From assembly GCA_902478705.1 (NCBI GenBank), contig CABSMB010000001.1, forward strand, positions 1 through 31,765: a DNA stretch of 31,765 bases. The letters are read 5' to 3'. Shown piece after piece: positions 1,720-30,944 of the stretch. Source of the DNA: an uncultured Collinsella sp. GTDB lineage: Bacteria > Actinomycetota > Coriobacteriia > Coriobacteriales > Coriobacteriaceae. How positions within the stretch are numbered: the stretch's first letter is position 1; the number at the start of each line of letters is the position of its first letter. The position numbers were made by a program, and so were the translations under genes. Under the pieces are notes generated by a model. The model worked only from the letters and a program-made list of their open reading frames with translations, did not search any database and had not been told where the DNA came from.

Positions 1720-2091
1720 ATGCTCTTTTCCCGCCGTTCTGCCACATCTGCCTGCGCCATTGTGCTTATCGTAATGGCGGTCACCCCTTATCACCGGTTT
1801 TCATCTTCAATTGGCTTGGTATCAGGTGCAATGACCTGGCTCGTTATCCTTGGCGCGTGCCTAGCGGCGTTTGGTCACGGTGTTGCGCTCCGCAAGGGGA
1901 GAGAAATAAGGCGGCCGGGGTTCCTTGGCGCCTTCGGTATTTTCCTTGCTGCTATTGCGGCGGTTCCCGAGTGGGCCGACTTGGCCTTCTATGCTCGCGG
2001 AGATTCTATTCCATTCGTGTTTGCGCCTATCTGGCTGTTGCGCGGCGTTTCATGCGCCTCGTGCTTTGCTGGGTCGTTGCTCCTCTCATGT
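1720..2091 (+). pseudogene. N-terminal fragment of a membrane LuxR-type regulator, cut by the IS element
   Basis: The frame starts at ATG 1720 behind ggagg (1711-1715); an upstream ATG at 1678 behind ggag is the alternative. It encodes about 124 residues with roughly four hydrophobic segments before the sequence runs into the right end of the IS200/IS605 element at 2092. Read from codon 2089-2091 straight into 3854, the frame continues without a stop into the long downstream regulator. So this is the missing front half of that gene and not an independent one. Its third and fourth segments (PEWADLAFYARGDSIP) resemble a stretch of the downstream half (VEWAFVYIAAWRCIRDP), as expected for an internal duplication. 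In the present state it would end a few codons inside the IS. Confidence 0.7.
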
Positions 2092-2250
2092 TTGACACTC
2101 CCCGTAGTTGAAACCAGGGGATTCTCGGTTCTGCGAGGTCTGCCGTCGGGGACCGATATGGTCCTCTAGGGTCTTACGTCCTCTCCCCGAGCGTTTAGGC
2201 GGCTACAGCCGCCCCGGTTCCCGCGTGCCCCACGGTACCTTCCGTGTTGG
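2092..2250 (-). ncRNA. Predicted omega RNA (reRNA) of TnpB at the element right end
   Basis: In IS200/IS605 elements the TnpB guide RNA covers the 3' end of tnpB and the right end, and takes its guide from DNA just outside the element. This interval lies between the tnpB stop (2195) and the right boundary. It contains the right-end hairpin (2100-2120) and further dyads (cgggga near 2147 with tccccg near 2185; gaccgatatggtc). The predicted guide is the complement of about 2072-2091 (5' acatgaggagagg-like order is to be read from the complement, beginning acatgagagg). The 5' limit is a guess. Confidence 0.45.
2100..2120 (-). repeat. IS right-end hairpin (IPR)
   Basis: A 21-nt imperfect palindrome with four-base CCCC/GGGG foot, preceded on the element strand by the guide GAAT and followed by a 4-nt linker and TCAA. 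Distance from foot to cleavage is 8 nt. Confidence 0.75.
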
Positions 2251-3370
2251 AGAGGATGCGTTTCCCCTCCGCCAGTATGTTTCTCGCCGCATTGACGTCG
2301 CGGTCGTGGTGCGCACCGCACGCGGGGCAGTCCCATGACCGTACCGACAGCGGCAGGGCGTCGAGCCTGTGCCCGCAGGCCGAGCAGGTCTTGCTCGACG
2401 GGTAGAACCGACCGACCTTGACGAGCGTACGCCCGCGCTCGGCGCACTTGTACTCAAGCAGTCGCGCGAGCTCTCCGAACGAGACATCCGACACGGCTTT
2501 CGCCAGATGATGGTTTCGTACCATGCCCTTCGCATTCAGATCCTCCATGCACAGGACTTGGTTCTCGTCCGCGAGCATGGTAGTGACCTTGTGCAGGGTA
2601 TCGGTCCTGGCATCGGCGATCTTCGCATGGATCCTGGCGACCCTCTTTCGCTGCTTCAGGTACCTGCCGCTCGGCTTCTCGCCGCTGCGGGCGCCCGTTC
2701 TGCGGGAAAGTCTGCGCTGCTCCCGCGCAAGCTTGCGCTCGTGTTTCTTGAGATGGCGCGGATTCCCGATTTTCGTGCCGTCCGAAAGAGTCACAAGCGT
2801 CTCGACGCCGAGATCGATTCCGACTTCCCGGTCGGTCGCGGGCGTGTCCTTGGTTGGCACGTCGGTGCAGAGAAAGGTGGCGAAGTAGCGACCGGCTGCG
2901 TCCAGGGAGACCGTGACCGACATGAAGCGTCCCTGGAGCGGTCGGGATACCTTAGCCCGGACAGTCCCGAGCTTTGGCAGCGTGATATGGTTGCGGTCGA
3001 GGACCTTGCCGCCGTTGGTGCGGTACGACTGTCGGGCGTGCCGGCGCGACTTGAACTTGGGGAAGCCCGGCTTTCCGCCCTCGCGCACGCGTCGGAAGAA
3101 GTTCTTGTAGGCGCGGTCGAGGTCGCGGACGGACTGCTGGAGCGCCATGGAGTCCGCTTGCGCGAGCCAGGAGGTCTCAGAGTCGCGCTTCCACGCCGGG
3201 AGCATTCGGGAGAGCTCCGCCCACGAGACCGTCTTGCCCGTCTTCGCATAAGCGGACTTCTTGACATCGAGGGCGCGGTTGTACACGAAACGGCAGCAAC
3301 CGAGCGTCCGCGCGATCTGGTCGCGCTGTGACGCATCCGGGTAGATTCGGTATTTGAACCCGCGTTCCAT
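2195..3370 (-). CDS. tnpB: TnpB RNA-guided nuclease of the IS200/IS605 family
   Basis: A 391-aa protein, normal length for TnpB. The RuvC-like catalytic residues are visible: D186 in GIDLGVE, E276 in LCMEDLNAKG and D358 in HHDRDVNAARN. The zinc ribbon cysteines are C329/C332 (CSACGH) and C348/C351 (CPACG). The N-terminal start, ERGFKYRIYPDASQRDQIAR, is typical of the family. All key residues are kept, so the protein is probably active. TnpB proteins cut DNA specified by the element-derived RNA next to a motif equal to the element's target tetranucleotide, here predicted TTAC, and so act against the empty site left by excision. It starts 3 nt after the tnpA stop and is probably translated with it. 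Confidence 0.93.
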   Translation of the reverse strand: MERGFKYRIYPDASQRDQIARTLGCCRFVYNRALDVKKSAYAKTGKTVSWAELSRMLPAWKRDSETSWLAQADSMALQQSVRDLDRAYKNFFRRVREGGKPGFPKFKSRRHARQSYRTNGGKVLDRNHITLPKLGTVRAKVSRPLQGRFMSVTVSLDAAGRYFATFLCTDVPTKDTPATDREVGIDLGVETLVTLSDGTKIGNPRHLKKHERKLAREQRRLSRRTGARSGEKPSGRYLKQRKRVARIHAKIADARTDTLHKVTTMLADENQVLCMEDLNAKGMVRNHHLAKAVSDVSFGELARLLEYKCAERGRTLVKVGRFYPSSKTCSACGHRLDALPLSVRSWDCPACGAHHDRDVNAARNILAEGKRILSNTEGTVGHAGTGAAVAA

Positions 3371-3373
3371 CGG

Positions 3374-3766
3374 CTAGACCTCCTTCTGGTCCTCGATGTA
3401 CTTCCTTACCTGCGCAAGGGACACCTCTCCCACAGTCGAAACGAAGTAGCTGTTCGTCCAGAGCGTGGGGATGCGGCTTTTCAGCCACGGGAACTCCGCA
3501 CGCAGGTCGTGGCTCGACCTGCCCTTGATTCGCTTCACCGTGCGATGGATGCTCAGCTGGGGATCGACTGACAGGAGCAAGTGCACATGGTCTGGCATGA
3601 CCTCCATCTCGACGATCTCGAAACCGAGCTCGTCGGCGACTTTCCGAGCGATCTCCTTGAAGCGCTCGTCGACTCCGTCCACGAGGACGGGCCGGCGGTA
3701 CTTCGGGCAGAAGACCACATGGTAGTTGCAGGAGAAAACTATGTTGCGGTTGCTCTTGTACTTCAT
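3374..3766 (-). CDS. tnpA: Y1 (HUH) transposase TnpA of the IS200/IS605 family
   Basis: A 130-aa protein of the usual length. The HUH motif is PDHVHLLL (H60 and H62), and the catalytic tyrosine is probably Y123 in VRKYIEDQ. The front half, NYHVVFCPKYRRPVL, is characteristic. Such enzymes cut and rejoin single-stranded DNA at the hairpin-bearing ends and move the element by peel-and-paste into lagging-strand or other single-stranded DNA. Intact, and adjacent to tnpB in the same orientation. Confidence 0.93.
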   Translation of the reverse strand: MKYKSNRNIVFSCNYHVVFCPKYRRPVLVDGVDERFKEIARKVADELGFEIVEMEVMPDHVHLLLSVDPQLSIHRTVKRIKGRSSHDLRAEFPWLKSRIPTLWTNSYFVSTVGEVSLAQVRKYIEDQKEV

Positions 3767-3816
3767 GGTATAGATATTATACAGTATTGAGCTGCATAAT
3801 ATCTACCGACTTATAT

Positions 3817-3837
3817 CCCCATAGATAAATCCAGGGG
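3817..3837 (-). repeat. IS left-end hairpin (IPL)
   Basis: A 21-nt imperfect palindrome: CCCC/GGGG foot, then TGGA/TCTA with one G-T mismatch, an unpaired T before the GGGG and loop TTTA. The guide AAAG lies immediately 5' on the element strand, and TTAC lies 12 nt further out. The unpaired T matches the hairpin form bound by IS608 TnpA. Confidence 0.78.
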
Positions 3838-3853
3838 CTTTACGACGGTCTCG

Positions 3854-5617
3854 GTAATTTGGGATACGGCGGGCTTTCCTTTGACGCAGGGGGCGACGCG
3901 GGCTGACGAAAGAGAAACTCGTCATCCGCAGGACGCGATTTTTACAGAAACAATAGCCGTCCTGTCTTGTCTGCTGTTCTGCTGTCGAGTTTCATGGAGA
4001 GTCGTTCCCGAGCCATGGGGGATGCCCTCTGTAATGGCCGCATCAATTGGCCTTATGCTTTTAATTCCTCTGTTCTATCTCGTATTGGCTGCGGTCCCGC
4101 TGCTTTGCTGTCCCCGCGCCTTTGGTCGGGGACAGAGCGACGTGCTCGCCCGTTCTGTGCTCGTAGCAGTTCCCATTGGCCTTGTTCCCGCTGTTGAGGT
4201 GGCATACTTCGCAAACGATGCCGCGATCATTGCGTCGCTGACGATAGGGTCCGCTATTGCTGCCTTCGTATGCACGTTGCTCAGGAAGAAGCGGAACAAC
4301 GATTCGGATATCCCCCGCACGTCCGACCCATTCGATGCGGGAGCGTTTTCTCCCTCTCTGTCGCCTCGAGAAGAGCAGTTTGTTCGACTGCTGCTCAAAG
4401 GGAAAACGCCGGCGGAAATTGCCAAGGAGACGGATACGAGGCCATCGACGGTGCGGACCACGCTTCACCGAGCATACGGGAAGGCGTCGGTTGCGGGCTC
4501 GCGTGAGCTGGTGGCGCTGTTTGCGGGTGGGGGCGAAGCTGTAGAGTCTGAGCTGTCGCAGCGGCATGCCGGCGATATGTTGGCATTAGCTCGGACGCAC
4601 CGGCTGCTTCGATATCTGCCCACATCTTTTTTTATTTTCCTTGCGGCAGGCCCCTTGGTAATGGCGGATAGCGATTGGGGGTCCGGTGTTTCGTGGGCAG
4701 TCGCCTTTTCTCTTACAAGCTATACATTGGGCCTCGGACTGTTTCTTTCGCCGTATTGCGCGGTTGTAAAGACAAATCATGACGCTGATCTGGATAGGGC
4801 AGGCGAAGCGATTGGGCTCGGAAGCCCGTGCGTGTGGGCGATACTGTCTGCCGTGGAATGGGCTTTTGTTTATATCGCGGCATGGAGGTGCATACGCGAT
4901 CCGTTGATGGCTGCACCGGTCCTGTTTTGCGGCATAGCGTCTATGGCTTCGCTCGCTGTTAAGCTGCGCCCGTTTAAGGTTCATGCCCATACTCGGGCTA
5001 TCGTGCCGTTGGCGTTAATAGGTGTATCCGCTTTAATCTATGCAGCAACTAGGGGGCGAATTCATGGACTTGCGGTACTGACGGGGATGCTGCTCACGTA
5101 TATAGTGCTGCGAAGCTGTCCGCAGCGCAAAATGCTTGGGGTATGGATGCTCTGCTTTGGGGCGATGGCTCCTGTTTGGGTTGTCTTGCTCAACATGGTG
5201 CAGGATCTGACGGTTTTCAAGCCGTTGTTCCTCGCGTCGTTGTTGGGGCATAGTTCGGCTGTCAATGTCGTCGTGGCAACGGTGATCGTCTGCTGGTCTG
5301 CGCCCATATTCGTCACGCACATCGCGCTCGCCCGCTCGGTTGAGGACGAGAAAGCCGTCTTGGAGTACCGCGCGAACGGGTCCACCGAAACAGCCCGCGT
5401 GCGCCAGCTGGCCCTGCTTATGTCTCGCTCCCTTTCTGATGTTCAGTCGCAAATCTTGCTGATGACGGCAGAGGGCGCAACGACAAAGGCTATTGCGGAG
5501 GATGTCGGTTACGCTGCATCTACGGTGCAAGCACTGCGGTCTGCATCTTACCGCCAGTTGAGGATCAAGAACAAAGCGGAGCTTATTTCATTGCTATCGC
5601 AGGTAGATAACGTGTAA
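3854..5617 (+). pseudogene. Large membrane-bound double LuxR-type regulator, 5'-truncated by the IS
   Basis: The open frame runs from the IS border (GTA at 3854) to the stop at 5615-5617. The first possible start is TTG 3881 without a clear ribosome site, giving 578 aa. Order: about four membrane segments; a LuxR/GerE helix-turn-helix (LSPREEQFVRLLLKGKTPAE, about residues 160-220); about eight membrane segments; a second LuxR-type helix-turn-helix (SLSDVQSQILLMTAEGATTK, about 515-575). Joined with 1720-2091 it would be 711 aa, organised as two repeats of eight membrane segments plus HTH. Regulators with one membrane half and one C-terminal LuxR domain are common in Coriobacteriia; two units in one chain is unusual. 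It precedes the secreted-protein/ABC operon and probably controls it. The truncated product could be partly active. Confidence 0.7.
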
Positions 5618-5726
5618 ACGCCTGAGCAATCAACTCAATAGCGGGTGTTTACAGACATCTTTCTCCATTCATGCAAAGGTTGCCGTGCGTCGACGCATTG
5701 TTAACCGCTTTTGATTGGAGAAGGCC
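5618..5726 (+). promoter_or_regulatory. Presumed promoter and leader of the island operon
   Basis: A 109-bp gap between the regulator and the secreted-protein gene. It is relatively AT-rich, has no strong -35/-10 match that I trust, and ends in ggagaagg (5717-5724) before ATG 5727. It is the likely control point for the following five genes because later junctions overlap. Confidence 0.35.
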
Positions 5727-6239
5727 ATGATTAAGCCAAGGAGCGCTATTGCTCGAATCGGAGTCGGCTTGGCGATTGTTGCGGGCTTGTCGATGGGTGC
5801 ACCTGCCGCATCATTTGCTCAAGAGGAGTTTGACACTTCCCAGGTTTCTAGCATTTCGCAGAGCGCGGATGCCGGAATTGCCACATGCAAGAACAACGAA
5901 GATAGAGATTTCGCTTTTCAGTGTTCTGGCACGAGCGCAACTGGCTATCGCCGGAAAGAAGATTCATCCTCAGTCTACATTTGGATTCAAGGCTATTCGG
6001 GAAAGCCATTGCGCCTGTACGTGGACGGTGCCTATGACACTAAAGGAACGGGCAACATGAATTGCACGCAAGGCGTGTATCGCTCCAACCATGCGGATAA
6101 ATGGGAGATATACAACCTCGTCCGTGAGAATGGGCGCAGTCATGCTCGTCTGACTGCATGGGCCGAGTCCGGATACGGCACGGTCTATGGAAAGTGGAGC
6201 CCCGATTGCTTCGGTCATTTTAACAAACTTCCCTCCTAG
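5727..6239 (+). CDS. Secreted protein of a bacteriocin-like ABC locus
   Basis: A 170-aa protein with a Sec signal peptide (IGVGLAIVAGLSMGAPAASFAQ), cleavage expected after about residue 32. The mature part has cysteines (ATCKNNED, FQCSG, MNCTQG, SPDCFG), a segment GYRRKEDSSSVYIW and a C-terminal YGKWSPDCF. Small secreted proteins of this build (YRRK...VY, then W-S-P-D) occur beside LuxR or two-component regulators and ABC transporters in Gram-positive bacteria; I recall them as bacteriocin-locus partners, but their activity is not established. It starts at ATG 5727 with an excellent site, first gene of the operon. It could be the exported effector or a surface factor. A different secreted protein at 30.5-30.8 kb shares a short YRSN motif. 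Confidence 0.6.
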   Translation: MIKPRSAIARIGVGLAIVAGLSMGAPAASFAQEEFDTSQVSSISQSADAGIATCKNNEDRDFAFQCSGTSATGYRRKEDSSSVYIWIQGYSGKPLRLYVDGAYDTKGTGNMNCTQGVYRSNHADKWEIYNLVRENGRSHARLTAWAESGYGTVYGKWSPDCFGHFNKLPS

Positions 6240-6267
6240 CCAATCCGCAGCTTCTTGTTGTGATTAG

Positions 6268-6299
6268 GGCCGGGCCGAGCAGCAACGCTCGGCCCGGCC
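6268..6299 (+). other. Intercistronic stem-loop (13-bp perfect stem)
   Basis: Arms 6268-6280 and 6287-6299 with loop agcaac. Very GC-rich and not followed by a T-run, so it is more likely an attenuator or RNA-stabilising stem than a full terminator. It would let the secreted protein be made in excess of the transporter genes. Confidence 0.65.
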
Positions 6300-6318
6300 A
6301 ATGGGAGGGCGATGTTGC

Positions 6319-7200
6319 TTGAATGGAAATCTATTACGACATGAGTTATCCAAGATATTTGGAAACCATATATTTGCGTTGGCTCTTATTTTGGCGACTG
6401 CCATTTCGATGGCAGCTGCCATCGAGGCGTGGTGGACGCTCGAAATTGAGCGCAAGCAGCTGTTATCTTTTGGCTACGGCATTGGTCTGCAGTCTCAGAC
6501 ATACCTCGGCCAAACGCGTGAAAGTAGCTTTGGCAACTGGATTGTTGTGAGCGCGAACGCGCCGTTGTTAGCGTCGGTGTTTTTCTATTCGCTGCCGTTG
6601 CTTGCCATGTTGGCCGGGTCGTGGTCATGCCTGTCCGAGCGTTTGAGCGGGTACGAGGCACAGATCTGCACGCGTGTTTCTAGAAATGCATACGTGAACG
6701 TGAAGATGCTGTCTGCTTTCCTCTCTGCGTTTGCGGTCACGGCTATTCCGCTACTCGTGAACTTTCTGATTGTCTCCATACTGTTTCCCGCGTATCTCCC
6801 CCGAGTCGACGAATCGACTTACGTCGGGCTCTATCTGCATAGCTATTTTTCTGGCCTGTTTTATTCCCGGCCTCTGTTATACGTGCTGGTTTATACGCTG
6901 TTCGATGCGGTGGCGCTGGGGGTTCTATCCATGGCCGTGACCGGTCTGTCGGTTGTGTTTCGCAGCAGAATCAAGGCGATGGTCGTTCCATATCTGATTA
7001 TGGTTGCATGGCACTTTGTTAACGACTGGATTTTTAGCGTCCTTTCATGCGTTGGCTTTAACTGCAACATTCTTAACAGCATCAGGTCGGAATCGCTAAA
7101 TAACTGGCCCGACATCCGAGCGGGGGTTGCGGAAATCATCTTGCTGTTCGTCTTTTCTTTGGTTTCCGCGAGATTCTTAAAAAGACGCGAGGTGGTCTGA
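6319..7200 (+). CDS. ABC transporter permease (first of two)
   Basis: A hydrophobic protein of about 293 aa with roughly six membrane segments, starting NLLRHELSKIFGNHIFALAL, the usual beginning of ABC-2-like permeases in bacteriocin-resistance or export loci. The start is uncertain. TTG 6319 has gggaggg 9 nt upstream; ATG 6301 has no site and lies within the hairpin trailer. An ATG at 6312 with the same site is out of frame and stops after ten codons, which could be a short leader or the trace of a frameshift. The stop overlaps the next start by one base. With the next two genes it forms an ABC exporter or immunity complex. Confidence 0.7.
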   Translation: MNGNLLRHELSKIFGNHIFALALILATAISMAAAIEAWWTLEIERKQLLSFGYGIGLQSQTYLGQTRESSFGNWIVVSANAPLLASVFFYSLPLLAMLAGSWSCLSERLSGYEAQICTRVSRNAYVNVKMLSAFLSAFAVTAIPLLVNFLIVSILFPAYLPRVDESTYVGLYLHSYFSGLFYSRPLLYVLVYTLFDAVALGVLSMAVTGLSVVFRSRIKAMVVPYLIMVAWHFVNDWIFSVLSCVGFNCNILNSIRSESLNNWPDIRAGVAEIILLFVFSLVSARFLKRREVV

Positions 7201-8036
7201 TGCTGTTTAGGCTGGTCGCCGCGGACCTGAGGACCGTTTTGAAGAAGAACATCATTGCTTTTATTGCGGTTGCGGCAGTGACCGTTGCGAACTTGGTGTA
7301 CGCCTACGGATTGTCTTCTGTGTATGGGGTCAGGACGGATACCTTGGGGTTTGCGGATAATCTTGCGCTCGTGTTTGCCGGATCTGCTCCGTTTGAGCCT
7401 AGGCCCGGGGTCATGTTTGTGCCTCCGCTAGGGTGGCTATTCCTCATTCTGCTTATTCTCTATACAACACTCGATTATCCGACCGAATCGTTGCACGGGC
7501 TTGGTTTACAAGCGCTTGTTCGATGCCGGGCAAGAACCCTTTGGTGGGCCTCGCGTTTTATCTCAGTGGCGGCGGTAACGGCATTTTCACTGCTCGTGGT
7601 GGTTTGCTCTGTTGTGATTTGGAGCTTGGTGGTGAGCTCCTCGTTCAGCGCGGTCATTCATGGCGAGTCGCTTCAGCTGGCTAATTTGGCGCCGTGGTTT
7701 CTCAAAGCTGCCGAGGCGGATGCGCTGCCGTTTTTCATAGGTCTCTTATTTGCTTTCGAGGCGCTTGCGTTTGCGCAGGCAGCGGTTGGGTTTGTGCTTG
7801 GGCCGTCAGTCTCGTTTGTGGTTTTAATGAGCTACCTGATCTGCTCGGCATATGCACGACATTGGGCGCTATTGGGTAACGCCTTGATGCTGTTGCGCTG
7901 GGGCGGAATTGTCAAAGAGGGAATCGCGGCGGGCTCGAGCGTCTTGTTTTCAATTGTGATTATGTCGCTATGCCTATCGTTGGGTGGACTGTGGTTTCGA
8001 AGGGCCGACCTTATAGAAAAGGGGGACAAGATATGA
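7200..8036 (+). CDS. ABC transporter permease (second of two)
   Basis: A 278-aa membrane protein with about six hydrophobic segments, starting MLFRLVAADLRTVLKKNIIA. It has no recognised enzymatic motifs. Its start shares a base with the previous stop and its stop overlaps the ATPase start by 4 bp (ATGA), so the three are translationally coupled. The pair of dissimilar permeases with one separate ATPase resembles lantibiotic-immunity or bacteriocin-export transporters. Substrate unknown, but the secreted protein upstream is the obvious candidate. Confidence 0.7.
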   Translation: MLFRLVAADLRTVLKKNIIAFIAVAAVTVANLVYAYGLSSVYGVRTDTLGFADNLALVFAGSAPFEPRPGVMFVPPLGWLFLILLILYTTLDYPTESLHGLGLQALVRCRARTLWWASRFISVAAVTAFSLLVVVCSVVIWSLVVSSSFSAVIHGESLQLANLAPWFLKAAEADALPFFIGLLFAFEALAFAQAAVGFVLGPSVSFVVLMSYLICSAYARHWALLGNALMLLRWGGIVKEGIAAGSSVLFSIVIMSLCLSLGGLWFRRADLIEKGDKI

Positions 8037-8677
8037 GCGTGATCGTTAGGGACGTATCGAAGCGCATGGGCAAAAACGATGTCCTGCGCAACGTGTCCAT
8101 CGAGGTTGACCCTGGGACCGTGGTCGGACTTCAGGGGATAAACGGTTCGGGTAAGACCATGCTTATGCGAGCGGTCTGCGGATTGATCAAGCCTACCGAA
8201 GGCGAAATCTCTATCGATGGACAAAGGCTTGGGGCGGACATCTCGTTCCCGCCGAGTCTGGGGATGTTGATCGAGGCGCCTTCCTTTTTGGGATATCTGT
8301 CTGGCTACGACAATCTGGAGCTCATCGCTCAGATCAAGGGCGTTGCCACCCCCGAGGACATTCGCTCTGCCCTGCGGCTCGTGGGGCTCGATGCAGACGA
8401 AAAAAAGAAGTTCCGAGCATACTCGCTTGGGATGAAGCAACGTCTGGGGATAGCTGCGGCAATTATGGAAAAGCCGAAGCTGCTTGTTCTCGATGAGCCA
8501 ACAAATGCCCTCGACGAAGCGGGCGTTGAAATGCTCAAGCGCGTTGTGGCGATGGCGGCCTCAACGGGTCGCGAGGTTATTCTGTCCAGCCATGACGGAG
8601 AGGTGCTCGAGGAGCTGGCCGATCGGGTTTACTGCATGCGCGACGGTGCCGTTGTGAAAGTTCGGGAAAGGTCGTGA
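8033..8677 (+). CDS. ABC transporter ATP-binding protein
   Basis: A 214-aa single nucleotide-binding domain. Walker A is GINGSGKTM (about residue 35-43), the signature is YSLGMKQRLGIAAA, Walker B is LLVLDEPTNALD and the switch histidine is in SSHD. The start is ATG 8033, overlapping the permease stop; the longer frame from 7970 runs inside the permease gene and is not used. It energises the two upstream permeases. All motifs are intact. Confidence 0.92.
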   Translation: MSVIVRDVSKRMGKNDVLRNVSIEVDPGTVVGLQGINGSGKTMLMRAVCGLIKPTEGEISIDGQRLGADISFPPSLGMLIEAPSFLGYLSGYDNLELIAQIKGVATPEDIRSALRLVGLDADEKKKFRAYSLGMKQRLGIAAAIMEKPKLLVLDEPTNALDEAGVEMLKRVVAMAASTGREVILSSHDGEVLEELADRVYCMRDGAVVKVRERS

Positions 8678-8682
8678 GCGCG

Positions 8683-9342
8683 ATGAAGAAGACCCTGTGG
8701 ACGAGAAGGTCGGTGCTCGCTCTTTTCGGCTGTGCTGCTACCGGCCTTGCGGGCATGAGGGTGAGCGCCGTTAACGGGAACCGGACGGTCATTCCTGAGA
8801 AATATTATGCGGAGGGCGAATGGCTCTCGATGGATGGGGCGTTTCTGGGTTCGAAGGATGTGGCGACTGACGGGTATTCGTTTTGCATAGACGGGGCAGA
8901 GCTGCTCACGCCGCGCGAGTATCTCAAGCGTGCGCATGATGATTATTCAAAATATGGCGTCGTGGATACGAAAACGAAATTGAAGGACGCCGACATCACG
9001 TGTGTTATCGCCGTAAAGATGCGTGTCAGGAATAAGGACAATGTCGAAGGCGGAATCAAGACGTATGTTTGGCATTTGGTGCCGGAGTCTGCGCCAAACT
9101 ATGACTTTATGGTCAATACCGATCTGATGGCGCAGGCAATGCCGGCTCTAAGCGGTTCTGCTGCGTTTGCCGTGCAGGTTGGGGCGGAGAACGAGTTGCT
9201 CGTCCCATTCATGATGCAAAACACCAACGACTATTTCGAAGGTTACGAGACCGTCCGTTTTGAGAAGGCTTTTCCTGGGACTTATACGATGAAGATGACC
9301 GATCTGCCGGAGAGAAGGCTCTTAAGGTTTGAAGTGAAGTGA
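8683..9342 (+). CDS. Exported protein at the end of the ABC operon (DUF5028-like?)
   Basis: A 219-aa protein from ATG 8683, or 222 aa from GTG 8674, which overlaps the ATPase stop. The N-terminus KKTLWTRRSVLALFGCAATG has a twin-arginine-like pair followed by a hydrophobic stretch and a cysteine in LFGC, so it could be a Tat substrate or a lipoprotein. The mature part is mostly beta-rich in appearance (AVQVGAENELLVPFMMQNTN) without a catalytic motif I recognise. It resembles, from memory, the DUF5028 proteins that accompany ABC transporters in Gram-positive bacteria; this is tentative. Likely role: surface accessory or immunity factor of the transporter. Confidence 0.55.
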   Translation: MKKTLWTRRSVLALFGCAATGLAGMRVSAVNGNRTVIPEKYYAEGEWLSMDGAFLGSKDVATDGYSFCIDGAELLTPREYLKRAHDDYSKYGVVDTKTKLKDADITCVIAVKMRVRNKDNVEGGIKTYVWHLVPESAPNYDFMVNTDLMAQAMPALSGSAAFAVQVGAENELLVPFMMQNTNDYFEGYETVRFEKAFPGTYTMKMTDLPERRLLRFEVK

Positions 9343-12290: not shown

Positions 12291-13484
12291 CTAGTTAAAC
12301 AGCGGCACCTTATCGAGCAGAAAATCCTCCACGGTGCACGCCCCGGCCGCCGCTCCTCCCACGACGATCCGCTTGGCTCGCGGATACTTTTTTAGGAGCG
12401 TCGACATGCCGCTCTGGCCGGACTCTCCACCGCTTTTGACCTCGATGGCGCTCAGTGCATCATCCCTTCGCAGCACAAAGTCGACCTCTTTGACGCCTTC
12501 ACGCCACCACATAACCTCAAAACCCTCTTCCGGCGCGCGCGCAAGCAGTCGTGCACCCACTGCCGATTCCACCAAATGACCCCGCCGCGCCGAATCTTCC
12601 AGCCATTCTGCACGGCCCTTATCGCCGAGCGCCGTCATAAACGCCGTGTCATAAACCATGAGCCGCGGGGTGCTTCGGCGCTTTGCGAGCTCCTTGTCAC
12701 TGAACTTGGGGATCGCCGTAACCAAACCGGCCTTGCCCAGCAGGTCCAAATACCCGGCGACCGTGACCGTGTTACCGGCATCCTGCAGCTGGCCTACCAT
12801 TTTTGAATACGAAAGCTCCTGTCCCGAATAGCTCGCCGCGAGCCAAAAGAGCGCGCGCATCAGCGCCGGTTTGCGGATATTCTCCAACGAGAGAACATCG
12901 CGCGAGATCGCCGGCTCGACGATCGCATCTCGGATATAGTTTCGCCAACGGGCGTCATCGGAAACCAGCGGCGCCGCACCCGGATATCCGCCGTGATAGA
13001 GATAGTCTTCAAAAGAAAAGTCAAAGGCCTCGCTGCACTCGCGATAGGACCAATGCGGCGACCGAATGAGCTCGTAACGGCCCATAAGGGATTCTTCCAA
13101 GCCCTTATGCAGCAGCAGCGACGACGATCCGGTCAACATGACCTTGAGCGGCGTCCCCTCCCGGCGATCCCGGTCGTACAATCCCTTGACGACCGTGGAC
13201 CAACTCTGCACCTTTTGAATCTCATCAACAACGAAAACGGCCGGGGCCTTACCTCCAGACGTGAGGTTTCTTGCCTGTTGCCACTCGATTTGCAGCCAGC
13301 TGGCATCGGGATTCACAACATCGTCCGCATTGACCACGTGACAGGGCATGTCTACATGGTGCAACGCCTGCACGAACATGGTCGACTTTCCCGTTTGGCG
13401 GGGCCCGATTATAAATTGCATCAACGGATTATTCGTTTCCCGCATCCTCTGGGCTATCACGGCAACTTGATGGCGCTCAAACAT
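12291..13484 (-). CDS. AAA-type ATPase with C-terminal DUF4143/nuclease-like domain
   Basis: A 397-aa protein. The AAA_14-type N-domain has Walker A GPRQTGKST (about residues 27-35) and Walker B VFVVDEIQK; LMLTGSSS-like sensor text (KVMLTGSSSLLL) follows. The C-terminal half fits DUF4143, with a PD-(D/E)XK-like pair VDFVL...AIEVKSG. Proteins of this type are common in gut bacteria; their role is not settled, with defence or DNA handling suggested. ATG 13484 lies just downstream of aaggagg (about 13491-13497, complement). It is bracketed by near-identical dyads, and a second, divergent member is at 28.8-30.1 kb. Confidence 0.82.
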   Translation of the reverse strand: MFERHQVAVIAQRMRETNNPLMQFIIGPRQTGKSTMFVQALHHVDMPCHVVNADDVVNPDASWLQIEWQQARNLTSGGKAPAVFVVDEIQKVQSWSTVVKGLYDRDRREGTPLKVMLTGSSSLLLHKGLEESLMGRYELIRSPHWSYRECSEAFDFSFEDYLYHGGYPGAAPLVSDDARWRNYIRDAIVEPAISRDVLSLENIRKPALMRALFWLAASYSGQELSYSKMVGQLQDAGNTVTVAGYLDLLGKAGLVTAIPKFSDKELAKRRSTPRLMVYDTAFMTALGDKGRAEWLEDSARRGHLVESAVGARLLARAPEEGFEVMWWREGVKEVDFVLRRDDALSAIEVKSGGESGQSGMSTLLKKYPRAKRIVVGGAAAGACTVEDFLLDKVPLFN

Positions 13485-24944: not shown

Positions 24945-27900
24945 TTACATCTGCTCGCGGCGCTTCTTCTGGTCGAGAAAGACGCCGGCTGCCACGAGGA
25001 CGGTACCGCCGATGGCGAACGTCTCGCCGATGAGGCCCGCGCGGTCGCCGGTCTGAGCGAGGCTGCCGCGCTTTGCGGTCTCCGTGCCGGCGAGGTGCTT
25101 CGGGCTGTATGCCGCCTGCTGCTTTGCGGCCTCCTCCGCCTCCTGACGAGCGATCTCATCGGAAAGCTCCTGCTCCGCTGCGATGCGGTCGGACTTCGCC
25201 TGCTCGTAGGCGGCGAGTGCCGCATCATAGCCGGACTGGAGCCCGTCCACCGCGGCCTGCTTCTCGTCCAGGATGGCCTTGGCGGGGGCGACCTTGGCAC
25301 GTGCCTCGACTGCTGCGGCGAAAAGCGCGTTGAGGGCGTCATCCGCGTTCGCGTCATGGCCGGAAGCGATCGCCGCATCGGCATCGATGGAGTTCAGCTT
25401 CGCCAGCTTGGCGTCCGCCTGTGCCTTCGACTGCTCGGTGGCGGAGACCAGGGACTCGGCGGCAATGGCGTCCGCCTTTGCGGAGTCGAGCGCGGCCTTG
25501 GTGTCATTGACGGCCTCGGCTGTATCCTGCTCGCGCTGCTGCGCCTCTGCGAGCTTCGCGGCAAGACCGGTGATGATCTCGAGGTTCGACTGGGCGACCT
25601 CGAGATCGGACTGGGAGCCGGTAAGCTTGTCGCCGGCAACGCCGGTGTCGGTCTTTGCGGCATCGACGGCACGCTGGGCATCCGCGAGGGCGCTTGCGGT
25701 GTCGTCCGCCTTTTGCTTGGCGGCGGCGAGGACGGTCGCCTTCTCGGCCTGATCGGCTGCCGCCGCGTCGTGGACGCTCTTTGCGGCATCGAGCGCCTTC
25801 TTGGCGTCGGCGACGTCCTGGAAGAACTTCGCAAGGTCGGCGTTCGCATCGTCCACGCCCTGCTGCTTGGATGCGGTGTCCGCCTTGGCGGAATCCAGCT
25901 TGGACTGTGCGGTCGTTACGGCTGCGTTGGTGGCAGCGAGGGCATCCTGCTTCTGCTGGACGGTCGACTTTGCCGTATCGACTGCCGCATTGGCGGCATC
26001 GAGGTCCGATTTCGCCGCATCAAGCTCGGCCTGGGCATCCGTGACGCCCTGCTGCTTGGCGGCGACATCAGCCTTTGCGGCATCGACCCCACGCTGCGCA
26101 TCGGTGACGCCCTGCTTCGCGGCATCGACACCTGCCTGTGCGGAATCCGCTGCGTCCTGCTTCTGCTGGACGGTTGCTGCGGCGCCGGCGGCTGCCTGCT
26201 GCTTGGTTGCGAGATCGGCCTTGGCTGCGTCGAGTGCGCTCTTGGCGTTCTTGAGACCGTTGGTATAGGAGGTCAGCTTTTGCTCGTACTCGTCGACGGA
26301 GATGTGGTTCATGTTCCAACCGGAGCCGGACCAGCCGGAGATCTCTGCGGTGTAGCACTGCGTCTGAAGCCCGGACATGGTGCCCTTGGTACAGGTTGCC
26401 ATTCCCATAACGGCGAGTTCGGGATTGATGATGTTCATATAATGACCGACGGTGCCGCTGCTGCCGTTCTCCCAACGGCAGTTGTCTGCAATCCAATGGT
26501 TGATTGCGACGCCGTTCTTTGCATAGAAATCATAGGCATCCTTGCCGACAAGACCGGTGACTCCATAAAGGGCCTCCGTTGCCTTGTCGAAAAAGCCCTT
26601 CTCCTGCTCGATCCACTGACCACTTGGATCGATTCCGTAATTCCATGCCAGGTTTTCGGCAAAATCATATTGACGGGCATGATCGAGCATAGTGTCACTG
26701 TAGTTGGCATCCGCAATGGCACCGGCGATGAGCTTGTAGGTGACCTGGAGCTCGGACAGGCCGACCGACTTGCGGTAGTCGTTGACGGACTTCATCCACC
26801 TGATCGCATTGATCATGTTGTCAAGGGACGTGGCGTCCTTGGAGTTGCCGACTTCGGTCTTGCCGGCATATTTGGCGTTCAGGATGATGTTGGCTGCGTC
26901 ATCGGCACCCATGGCCTTGAAGAAGCCGATGGCTCCCTGCTTGAGCTGCGCGTCGGCGGAATCGAGTTTCACCTGTGCCTCGTCGACCTTCTGCTGGGCG
27001 GCGGTCACGGCCGCGTCGGCGGTAACCTTTGCGGTCTTGGCGTTCACAAGCTCTTCGTCGGCGGCTGCCTTTGCGGACTCGGCGTCCTTGACGGCCTGCT
27101 TCGCTGCATCCAGCTTGGCAATGGCGTCGACGTTCGCCTGCTTTGCTGCATCGAGGTCGGAGTTTGCTGCATCGAGTGCGGATTGGGCGTCGTTCACGCC
27201 GGACGCGGCATCGACCGCGGCCTGCTGCTTCGCGGAGAGGGACGCCTGGGCATCGTTCAGCTCGGTCTGTGCCGTCGCTGCGGCGGACTGCGCCTGCTCG
27301 AGCTCGGACTCGCACTGGGACTGTGCCGCTCGTGCGGCGGCGAGGGCTGTCTCTGCGTCCGCGACCTTCTGTTTTGCCGCATCGTACTCCGGACCGCTGG
27401 CGCCTGCCTCCGCTGCGGCGAGGTCGGCTTTCGCCTGCTCATAGGCGGCGCTGGCGGTTGCGGCCTTCTCATCTGCCGCGTCCTTGTTCTGTTTGGCTGC
27501 AGCGAGGACGGTATCGGCGGAATCCTTTGTAGACTGGGCCGCAACCAGCTTGGACTGGGCGTCGGCAAGCGTCGCGTTGGCGTTGGCGAGTTCGGTCTGC
27601 GCCTTGCTCACGGCATCCTGGGCGTCGCGCACGGCCTGCTCGGCGGCACCGATCGCCTCCGGGGTGGCACTTACGGCATCGGCCTTGGCTTTATCGAGGG
27701 CATCCTGAGCGTCCTGGGCCGCCTTGAGGGCGGACTGGTACGCTTCGTCCTTCTCGGACGCATCTGCCTTGGCGTCTGCGAGACCCGCCTTCGCCTGCTC
27801 GAGATCCTTGCTGGCGGCATCGGCGGCGGACTTGCCCTCTGCGACCTGACGGGCGTACTCGTCCATCGCCGCACGGTCGGCTGCCGTGCCGGCACTGACC

Positions 27901-28298
27901 GCCGAATCGTAGGATGCCTTGGCCTGGTCGCGGGCGGAAGCTGCCTCGTTGTAGGGGCCGGCGGCCTCATCGTAGGATGCCTTGGCGGCGTCCTCCTTCG
28001 CCTTCGCCTCGTCGACCTCCTTCTGCAGGTCCGCGATGGTCTGCGCTGCGGACTTCGCGCCGGTACCGGATGCCGCGCCGGCATGGGCGGCGATCGGCGA
28101 CATCACGGCGGGGTGCTGCGTGGTCCCGTCACCGGTCTGGGCGAATGCCGCGAACGGCGAGATGAGGCTCGATCCGGTCATGGCGGCCATAGTCGCCGCG
28201 GTGACGGTCAGACGTGCGATCCCCTTCGGGGCGTGAAACTTTTTGCTTGGCAGTGCGGCGAAGTGATCGCCACCGGCAGCGTGCTTTCCCTGAGTCAT
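24945..28298 (-). CDS. Cell-wall-anchored CAP-domain/coiled-coil protein, SEC10/PgrA-like surface exclusion type
   Basis: A 1117-aa protein. N-terminal signal peptide (ARLTVTAATMAAMTGSSLIS to FAAFAQ). Residues about 70-470 are an Ala/Asp/Lys/Gln-rich coiled coil. Residues about 480-650 are a CAP/SCP-like domain (MINAIRWMKSVNDYRKSVGL, HARQYDFAENLAWNYG, VGHYMNIINPE). A second coiled coil spans about 665-1045. The C-terminus has the sorting signal SLAQTG, a hydrophobic segment and QKKRREQ, so sortase anchoring is expected. Coil-CAP-coil with a sorting signal is the plan of the enterococcal Sea1/PrgA surface-exclusion proteins, which block redundant plasmid uptake. This is notable because the plasmid has an oriT. 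A role in adhesion is the alternative. Repeated Lys/Ala heptads may be unstable by recombination. Confidence 0.82.
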   Translation of the reverse strand: MTQGKHAAGGDHFAALPSKKFHAPKGIARLTVTAATMAAMTGSSLISPFAAFAQTGDGTTQHPAVMSPIAAHAGAASGTGAKSAAQTIADLQKEVDEAKAKEDAAKASYDEAAGPYNEAASARDQAKASYDSAVSAGTAADRAAMDEYARQVAEGKSAADAASKDLEQAKAGLADAKADASEKDEAYQSALKAAQDAQDALDKAKADAVSATPEAIGAAEQAVRDAQDAVSKAQTELANANATLADAQSKLVAAQSTKDSADTVLAAAKQNKDAADEKAATASAAYEQAKADLAAAEAGASGPEYDAAKQKVADAETALAAARAAQSQCESELEQAQSAAATAQTELNDAQASLSAKQQAAVDAASGVNDAQSALDAANSDLDAAKQANVDAIAKLDAAKQAVKDAESAKAAADEELVNAKTAKVTADAAVTAAQQKVDEAQVKLDSADAQLKQGAIGFFKAMGADDAANIILNAKYAGKTEVGNSKDATSLDNMINAIRWMKSVNDYRKSVGLSELQVTYKLIAGAIADANYSDTMLDHARQYDFAENLAWNYGIDPSGQWIEQEKGFFDKATEALYGVTGLVGKDAYDFYAKNGVAINHWIADNCRWENGSSGTVGHYMNIINPELAVMGMATCTKGTMSGLQTQCYTAEISGWSGSGWNMNHISVDEYEQKLTSYTNGLKNAKSALDAAKADLATKQQAAAGAAATVQQKQDAADSAQAGVDAAKQGVTDAQRGVDAAKADVAAKQQGVTDAQAELDAAKSDLDAANAAVDTAKSTVQQKQDALAATNAAVTTAQSKLDSAKADTASKQQGVDDANADLAKFFQDVADAKKALDAAKSVHDAAAADQAEKATVLAAAKQKADDTASALADAQRAVDAAKTDTGVAGDKLTGSQSDLEVAQSNLEIITGLAAKLAEAQQREQDTAEAVNDTKAALDSAKADAIAAESLVSATEQSKAQADAKLAKLNSIDADAAIASGHDANADDALNALFAAAVEARAKVAPAKAILDEKQAAVDGLQSGYDAALAAYEQAKSDRIAAEQELSDEIARQEAEEAAKQQAAYSPKHLAGTETAKRGSLAQTGDRAGLIGETFAIGGTVLVAAGVFLDQKKRREQM

Positions 28299-28656: not shown

Positions 28657-28715
28657 ATTTATCCGTCTCATATCCCATAGTGAATCTCGTTGATTCGTGT
28701 CTTAAGAAAATGGAA

Positions 28716-28784
28716 ATCGTCCCAACAGATTATCGTCAATCGTCCCAATAAGTCATCGTTATTTGTCCCAACGATGCAGATAGA
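28716..28784 (+). repeat. Three 23-bp direct repeats in the ATPase promoter
   Basis: atcgtcccaa at 28716 and 28739 and tttgtcccaa at 28762, exactly 23 bp apart. The third overlaps the likely -35 (ttgtcc, 28763-28768) upstream of TATAAT (28788-28793). Probably operators of the downstream gene. Confidence 0.7.
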
Positions 28785-28787
28785 CAG

Positions 28788-28793
28788 TATAAT
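28788..28793 (+). promoter_or_regulatory. -10 box TATAAT
   Basis: Consensus -10 about 30 bp upstream of ATG 28822. The -35 lies in the last 23-bp repeat with a 19-nt spacer. Confidence 0.55.
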
Positions 28794-28821
28794 TTCAAAT
28801 GAACGATTGAAGGGAAAGTCG

Positions 28822-30087
28822 ATGGATAGGTATATAGGCCGATGCGTTGACTGCTTGGTCGAACGCGATCTTGGCATTTTCGGTGCCGTGCTCATTCAGG
28901 GGCCGAAATGGTGTGGAAAGACAACGACAGCTCAGAGATTTGCCGAGTCATCGTTATCTCTCTCCGACCCATCTGGCGGTTTTGCGGCCCTCCAGCTCGC
29001 TCGTCTCGATCCGGCCCAAGCAATTGTCGGACCGACCCCGAGGCTTGTCGACGAATGGCAGGAAGAACCGAAGCTATGGGATGCCGTGCGATTCGAATGC
29101 GATGCCAGGGGAGGGGAGCCAGGACAGTTCATTCTCACCGGATCTGCGACGCCGCGAGCCGAGAACCAGCCGATGCACAGCGGTGTGGGTCGAATCGCCC
29201 GTTTGCGGATGGATACCATGACGCTTTTCGAGCTCGGTATTTCGTCGGGAGCGGTCTCGCTTGGTGCGCTGCTCGATGGAGATTCCGTTGCGGCGTCACT
29301 CGGATCCATCGCCGGTATCGCCGGTATCGCGGATTTGCTCTGCCGCGGCGGTTGGCCCCAAGCGGTCGGTAAGACAACTGCCGACGCAATGCGGATATCC
29401 GCCGCCTATATTGACGGTGTTTGCGAGTCTGACGTTTCGAGGGCGGATGGAGTGAAACGCGACCCGGTTAAGGTAAGGGCCTTGCTCTCGTCGCTTGCAC
29501 GCAATGAATCGACTCTTGCCGGCATGAGGTCCATCGAAAGGGATTTGGGCGTAGACGTCTCAAAGAATACGATTACCGGCTACATGGACGCGCTGCGCCG
29601 TATCAATATCGTCGACGATGTCCCCGCGTGGCATCCGGCTCTCAGGTCGCCGGTGAAGTTGCGGCAGGGCGCGAAGCGGCACCTTGCGGACCCATCGCTC
29701 GCCGTCGCCCTCATCGGTGCGGACCCGGAGTCGTTGTCATCCGATCCGAAGACCCTTGGCTTGCTCTTCGAATCCCTCGTGCTGCACGATCTCAAGGTTT
29801 ACGCGGCGGCCAGCGATGCGACCGTATCTCACTACCACGACGCTGACGACCTGGAGGTCGACGCGATTGTCCATCGTCGTGACGGCTCGTGGGCTGCCGT
29901 TGAGGTCAAGCTCGGGAGCCCCCAAGTCCCAGAGGCAGTGGAAAATCTGCTTCGACTCGAGCGAAAGCTGGTCAATCGCGGGGAGAGGCCGCCTGCGGCG
30001 AAACTCATCGTCATCGGGTTTGGTATGCCGGCTCACGTAACTGGCGAAGGCATCGTTGTTGCTCCGGTCGACACGCTCGGAATCTAA
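28822..30087 (+). CDS. AAA-type ATPase with DUF4143/nuclease-like C-domain (second member)
   Basis: A 421-aa protein starting MDRYIGRCVDCLVERDLGIF. Walker A is GPKWCGKTT (about residues 27-35), the Walker B region is RLVDEWQEEPKLWD and the sensor text is FILTGSATPR. The C-terminal domain has LEVDAIVHRR...AAVEVKLG, a PD-(D/E)XK-like pair. ATG 28822 has agggaaag upstream. Same family as 12291-13484 but clearly diverged, so not a recent duplicate. Each has its own repeat-based operator. Substrate and role are unknown. Confidence 0.82.
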   Translation: MDRYIGRCVDCLVERDLGIFGAVLIQGPKWCGKTTTAQRFAESSLSLSDPSGGFAALQLARLDPAQAIVGPTPRLVDEWQEEPKLWDAVRFECDARGGEPGQFILTGSATPRAENQPMHSGVGRIARLRMDTMTLFELGISSGAVSLGALLDGDSVAASLGSIAGIAGIADLLCRGGWPQAVGKTTADAMRISAAYIDGVCESDVSRADGVKRDPVKVRALLSSLARNESTLAGMRSIERDLGVDVSKNTITGYMDALRRINIVDDVPAWHPALRSPVKLRQGAKRHLADPSLAVALIGADPESLSSDPKTLGLLFESLVLHDLKVYAAASDATVSHYHDADDLEVDAIVHRRDGSWAAVEVKLGSPQVPEAVENLLRLERKLVNRGERPPAAKLIVIGFGMPAHVTGEGIVVAPVDTLGI

Positions 30088-30827: not shown

Positions 30828-30944
30828 TCATTCACCTCCCTCATATGTATCGAGGTATTCCTGCTTGAGCGTCTGCGAGGACGACTTGATCTTTTCCACG
30901 AGCGTGCCGGCCTCGATGCGGCCTTTGGATTTATCGGTATTCAC
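30828..30944 (-). CDS. Short frame coupled to the secreted protein (uncertain)
   Basis: A 38-aa frame from GTG 30944: helical, charged (GRIEAGTLVEKIKSSSQTLK, then QEYLDTYEGGE), stop TGA one base before the next ATG. No ribosome site for the GTG. The frame is open upstream (RKYGIAEK) into the 16-bp repeats, so it may be the tail of a truncated gene. Confidence 0.3.
   Translation of the reverse strand: MNTDKSKGRIEAGTLVEKIKSSSQTLKQEYLDTYEGGE

Follow-up and report, generated by a model that had tools for sequence, protein, structure and literature searches.

Here we describe an insertion sequence (IS) of the IS200/IS605 family that splits the gene of a LuxR-type membrane regulator in DNA from an uncultured Collinsella sp. 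(assembly GCA_902478705.1). The stretch analyzed, positions 1–31,765 of contig CABSMB010000001.1 and called the window below, is probably a whole plasmid. Approximately 19.3 of its 31.8 kb (the sum over the listed pieces) aligns with NZ_CP084005.1, a circular plasmid of 29,994 bp from Collinsella aerofaciens NBRC 114504, with the circular order kept and the alignment continuing across the window ends; parts of the backbone also match the plasmid NZ_OY725718.1 (27,038 bp). The element carries tnpA and tnpB genes and resembles IS608 (Table 1). Sequence comparisons make it likely that this is a single, recent and ordinary IS608-like insertion into a TTAC site of the luxR-type gene on a Collinsella plasmid, and that the insertion probably inactivates or truncates the regulator.

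The split regulator gene and its uninterrupted relatives

Joining position 2091 to 3854 fuses 372 nt to 1764 nt in one frame, giving 711 codons plus the stop with no earlier stop, exactly as the initial annotation had claimed. Its identification of the product as a LuxR-type regulator also holds: the protein matches GerE in two stretches, ends in a GerE-type helix-turn-helix (HTH) and has another HTH region midway along its length. The N-terminal part is 82–97% identical to full-length homologues among the rows listed, and the intact homologue P0001 displays 12 helix-like hydrophobic stretches.

Seven distinct natural Collinsella alleles (L001, L002, L003, L013, L052, L055 and L057) are uninterrupted and comprise 711–713 codons. 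One of them resides on the sister plasmid NZ_CP084005.1, and L001, L002, L003 and L055 are nearly identical, being 1–5 changes apart. None of the seven shows a gap within 30 nt of the 2091|3854 junction, which bears out the predicted exact insertion without target duplication. An in-frame ATG at 1678 behind GGAG offers an alternative start that could extend the protein to 725 codons; it is kept in two of the seven alleles (L013 and L057). A DNA search of 39 relatives found both flanks adjoining in three genomes, to which the plasmid record adds a fourth, and a scan of genome contigs returned six loci with an intact gene, three of them repeating genomes from the DNA search. Among 43 Collinsella genomes searched with the protein, six have a close homologue, none with an internal stop; in G048 the regulator gene runs across contig ends.

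The protein comparison agrees. All homologue counts given here rest on the best 120 of 1702 matches, from a database clustered at 90% in which the cluster of P0001 holds 1467 members. The border between residues 124 and 125 is crossed with nothing gained or lost in all 120 proteins, whose lengths are 710–718 aa apart from one of 663 aa. Chance cannot explain the single-base agreement of the element ends with these natural empty sites. Viral contigs scanned for the luxR-type gene, the empty junction and P0126 (an allele discussed below) yielded no relative, the junction pattern fitting GTAA alleles only; two phage records contain weak transposase matches. Within the literature library searched, no paper was retrieved on Collinsella, plasmid, LuxR and insertion sequence together.

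The split gene itself bears no sign of decay, a possibility that we considered and rejected. Its ratio of non-synonymous to synonymous substitution rates (dN/dS) against the seven intact alleles is 0.32–0.36, compared with 0.34–0.49 among the intact alleles (leaving out pairs within L001, L002, L003 and L055). Only one private residue occurs at an invariant column: Cys124 is the sole window residue to depart from the otherwise invariant positions, which number 387 among the 120 homologues. The base responsible is at the border itself, two bases away from the element's TCAA terminus. Since the split gene is conserved like its relatives, the insertion looks recent.

Table 1. Features of the interrupted regulator locus in the window
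Feature	Position	Strand	Remarks
Split LuxR-type membrane regulator, N-terminal part (codons 1–124)	1720..2091	+	Alternative start at 1678
Flanking 20 nt, presumptive source of the TnpB guide	2072..2091	-	Guide position 2 mismatches both TTAC-keeping intact alleles
Private base	2090..2090	+	Codon 124 is Cys; Tyr in 120/120 listed homologues
IS608-like IS200/IS605 element	2092..3853	-	1762 bp; complete; antisense inside the luxR-type gene
Right end: GAAT guide, CCCC...GGGG hairpin, AGTG, TCAA terminus	2092..2124	-	Sequence pattern conserved
Probable TnpB guide-RNA scaffold (tnpB 3' end to TCAA)	2092..2200	-	Conserved; role presumed from the IS200/IS605 family
tnpB, putative RNA-guided nuclease, 391 aa	2195..3370	-	OrfB_IS605 and Cas12f1-like domains; NF038281 at 425 bits, equal to the cut-off
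tnpA, Y1 HUH transposase, 130 aa	3374..3766	-	PF01797 (Y1_Tnp) 5.5e-44; NF033573
Left end: 12-nt tip, AAAG guide, CCCC...GGGG hairpin	3817..3853	-	Sequence pattern conserved
TTAC target and putative TnpB adjacent motif, left flank	3854..3857	-	In 2/7 intact alleles; TAAC in the other 5
C-terminal part, codons 125–711 and stop, both HTH regions	3854..5617	+	GerE 5.4e-17; Sigma70_r4_2 8.7e-11
Secreted 170-aa protein, two membrane proteins, ABC ATPase, DUF5028-like protein	5715..9342	+	Kept beside the regulator in relatives

Structure of the element

Read on the minus strand, the element stands after a flanking TTAC, has CGAGACCGTCGT-AAAG-CCCC...GGGG at the left end and GAAT-CCCC...GGGG-AGTG-TCAA at the right end, and is followed by the flank ACATGAG. 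Its cleavage and guide sequences agree with the IS608 ones in PMC5934647. The ends that the initial annotation had set by IS608 rules are confirmed by the seven empty alleles and by three related copies. Alternative ends were considered and set aside: the two bases adjoining TCAA in the window differ from those of most other copies, so that Cys124 looks like a point change and not like the result of a shifted end. Conserved CCCC/GGGG stems alone support the subterminal hairpins, the predicted hairpins of both the left and right ends having a folding energy no better than that of shuffled sequences.

NCBIfam assigns the two proteins to the IS200/IS605 transposase and IS200/IS605 TnpB families, and each protein matches its family over most of its length. 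TnpA has the HVH motif at residues 60–62 and Tyr 123, which we take to be the catalytic tyrosine. TnpB carries GIDLG at 184, EDL at 276 and DRD at 356, presumably the RuvC-like motifs. With both reading frames open and these motifs present, the element looks intact. We rejected removal of the element by RNA splicing, as in an IStron: little room is left beside tnpA and tnpB, the element is antisense to the luxR-type gene, and no Rfam family matches anywhere in the window at gathering scores, which also counts against it.

Related copies and guide–target pairing

Three related copies are ~91% identical to the window over the element: L018 and L040, from genome G269 of the same order, and L058 (IMGVR_UViG_2840465043_000002). 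They share their terminal sequence with the window but sit in unrelated surroundings, the divergence starting at the base that immediately follows TCAA. The last 109 nt of the element are 98.2% identical to each of the three, against ~91% for the element as a whole.

The left ends were scanned with a pattern that leaves the target unspecified at 44 TnpB loci, including the window, on both strands and with several loci overlapping. All 10 distinct left ends found pair guide and target as IS608 rules predict. AAAG occurs with TTAC in three (the window, L058 and L045), and AAAA with TTAT in seven (L018, L040, L019, L021, L023, L025 and L028). Seven short proteins (P0178–P0184) end in an IS-coded read-through tail like that of the window, fused to non-luxR sequence; in six of the seven the tail was found by an exact 8-residue string.

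Short derivatives of the same IS family are visible on sister plasmids. A 45-bp single-hairpin derivative (TTAT, left-end tip, one hairpin, AGTGTCAA) lies at 26581–26625 of L013 and also occurs in L048 and L057. At 30919–30935 the window has TTAT directly before the right flank of this derivative and is without ~1.9 kb of the sister plasmids, including most of an ABC-transporter gene; TnpA may have linked a different TTAT to the derivative's right flank. On contig 52 of G043 (L051, positions 1–1900) a different IS200/IS605 element seems to have inserted into the 45-bp derivative; it has a 46% identical TnpB and a tnpA-like frame recognized by eye.

Ordinary insertion or regulatory switch

The likely course of events is as follows. 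TnpA would have moved the element in single-stranded form, placing it 3' of TTAC. The split gene would now yield a membrane stub of 124 residues that carries an IS-coded tail, whereas its C-terminal part would give at most an N-truncated product initiated weakly at an internal start. The regulator has thus probably lost its hold on the downstream genes or exerts it differently. TnpB, with a guide taken from the luxR flank, would cut copies that have lost the element and thereby favor the inserted state. Excision may be possible in principle, but as a side effect of the way the element propagates rather than as an evolved switch.

The initial annotation had proposed reversible control of the regulator and its downstream genes, off upon insertion of the element and on again upon its exact excision, a reading that would matter more than an ordinary insertion if true. 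The element is apparently intact, its exact excision would give one frame, and IS608-type elements are described as sealing the donor upon excision (PMC5934647, PMC8612924). A restored frame, however, follows from any exact excision in this IS family, whose insertions leave no target duplication. A search for the N-terminal part joined to the IS tail gave 64 matches, 57 luxR-derived and seven with the IS tail only, and none with both among the 90% clusters; this interrupted form is thus found in 0 of the 57 representatives of luxR-derived fragments and in 0 of the seven DNA alleles, although clustering at 90% can hide some. Exact excision would moreover leave Cys124 in place of the tyrosine seen in all 120 listed homologues, and TnpB is expected to oppose loss of the element. 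Any TTAC can serve as a target, so a return to the luxR site would not be assured. Within these sets the inserted state was seen once, in the window, and we regard a reversible switch as very improbable.

It is also quite improbable that the inserted allele still works, with the C-terminal piece and both its HTH regions acting as an uncoupled regulator, translated from a start beyond the border or transcribed by way of a promoter that lies in the element's left end. The first possible start after the border is a TTG at 3881, which opens a frame of 578 codons, the first ATG follows at 4022, and a promoter-like site lies on the plus strand at 3771–3800. This site, however, has 9 of 12 matches, and three such sites in the region compare with a shuffled mean of 1.7; no good ribosome-binding site is seen by eye before 3881 or 4022, and the first membrane helices would be lost.

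Some observations weigh against the plain, single insertion that we favor. The position of Cys124 right beside the border is not accounted for by it, further interrupted alleles could be hidden by the 90% clustering in large clusters such as that of P0001, and other short luxR fragments suggest that the gene is broken in further ways too.

TnpB guide and spread among plasmids

PMC8612924 proposes cleavage of the sealed donor site by TnpB, with the element then being restored from a sister copy. Both this paper and PMC11870625 describe TnpB as working against the element's loss, and the latter reports TnpB-driven spread of IS200/605 elements through plasmid populations. TnpB with a luxR-derived guide might similarly cut co-resident TTAC plasmids, which the regulator-off plasmid would displace or convert, TAAC alleles being immune. 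The reported mechanism, the occurrence of TTAC in two and TAAC in five of the seven intact alleles, and the high conservation of the guide-RNA region all suit such a gene drive. On the other hand, both intact alleles with TTAC have Tyr at codon 124 and would mismatch the guide at position 2. Four of the five TAAC alleles are also nearly identical, so TAAC may reflect plain descent and not escape. Altogether we hold a plasmid gene drive to be unlikely. More conjectural still is a version in which the drive would fix the regulator-off state, TAAC would mark escape variants, and the private base at guide position 2, arisen with or after the insertion, would alter the strength of cutting of the original allele.

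Other broken regulator alleles

Recurrent loss of the regulator in gut plasmids by several routes, either favored or phase-variable through slippage, is possible though doubtful. The routes would be insertion of an IS200/IS605 element, as in the window, the IS21-like end that P0126 has at codon 123/124, and frame breaks at G runs. The 57 luxR-derived short fragments, nine of which have 10–46 members, speak for this possibility, as does the observation that in 11 of 51 placeable fragments (P0139 being doubtful) the break falls no more than 8 nt from one of the two G5 runs, which lie at joined nt 408 and 536. This is a plain count of luxR fragments, some of the others simply ending, as at contig ends. 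By contrast, such fragments would equally arise at contig ends or through sequencing errors in homopolymers, and all seven DNA alleles are intact. Among luxR fragments in metagenome proteins, frame breaks recur near G runs at joined nt ~177, 408 and 536; slippage, recurrent loss or sequencing error may be the cause.

P0126 is a luxR allele that ends at codon 123/124 in another repeated element, within ~3 bp of the IS200/IS605 site. Its tail is found in six of the 43 Collinsella genomes at E<=1e-6, one copy of the tail having an IstB_IS21 frame (2.5e-41) nearby; the repeated element is likely IS21-like.

Downstream genes and other regions of the window

As far as the loci of relatives reach, the five downstream genes occur there in the same arrangement. 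The initial annotation called them a bacteriocin-like operon. The best match of the ATP-binding cassette (ABC) ATPase is indeed the lantibiotic-protection subfamily, which lends this label slight support, but it stays far below the cut-off (179 versus 310 bits). The secreted 170-aa protein has no Pfam match and no meaningful NCBIfam match, and its predicted model, made from five sequences, is meaningless (mean predicted local distance difference test score, pLDDT, of 33.5). The label accordingly remains a guess.

Elsewhere in the window, a 1117-aa open frame (24945–28298, minus strand) lies where sister plasmids have a CAP-domain protein that varies in length from plasmid to plasmid. Two ATPases, at 12291–13484 on the minus strand and 28690–30087 on the plus strand, match models of the PADLOC candidate PDC-S01 (2.4e-162 and 7.5e-63).

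Comparison with known systems

The locus provides a base-exact natural case of an IS608-like insertion in a gut plasmid, and the existence of empty alleles with and without the adjacent motif renders TnpB-mediated retention and gene drive testable. According to PMC5934647 and PMC8612924, IS608 from Helicobacter pylori has the same TTAC left flank, the same guides AAAG (GL) and GAAT (GR) and the same TCAA terminus (CR); to its two subterminal hairpins correspond the predicted ones of the window. It likewise combines a Y1 tnpA with tnpB and produces no target duplication. It differs in preferring TTAC followed by C (PMC5934647), whereas the insertion here is at a TTAC followed by A in the empty alleles, and in its sequence group, that of the window element having been found here in Coriobacteriia. 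The G269 copies L018 and L040 share their ends with the window but combine the guide AAAA with the target TTAT. The TnpB of ISDra2, as presented in PMC8612924, similarly possesses RuvC-like motifs, takes its guide from the DNA adjoining the transposon and has an adjacent motif equal to the target; that motif is TTGAT, compared with TTAC in the window, whose TnpB is likened to it from sequence. The gene drive outlined in PMC11870625 also involves a TnpB-bearing IS200/IS605 element on a plasmid. Here, in contrast, the plasmid is a natural one from Collinsella, and the known empty alleles either are without TTAC or have a mismatch to the putative guide at its position 2.

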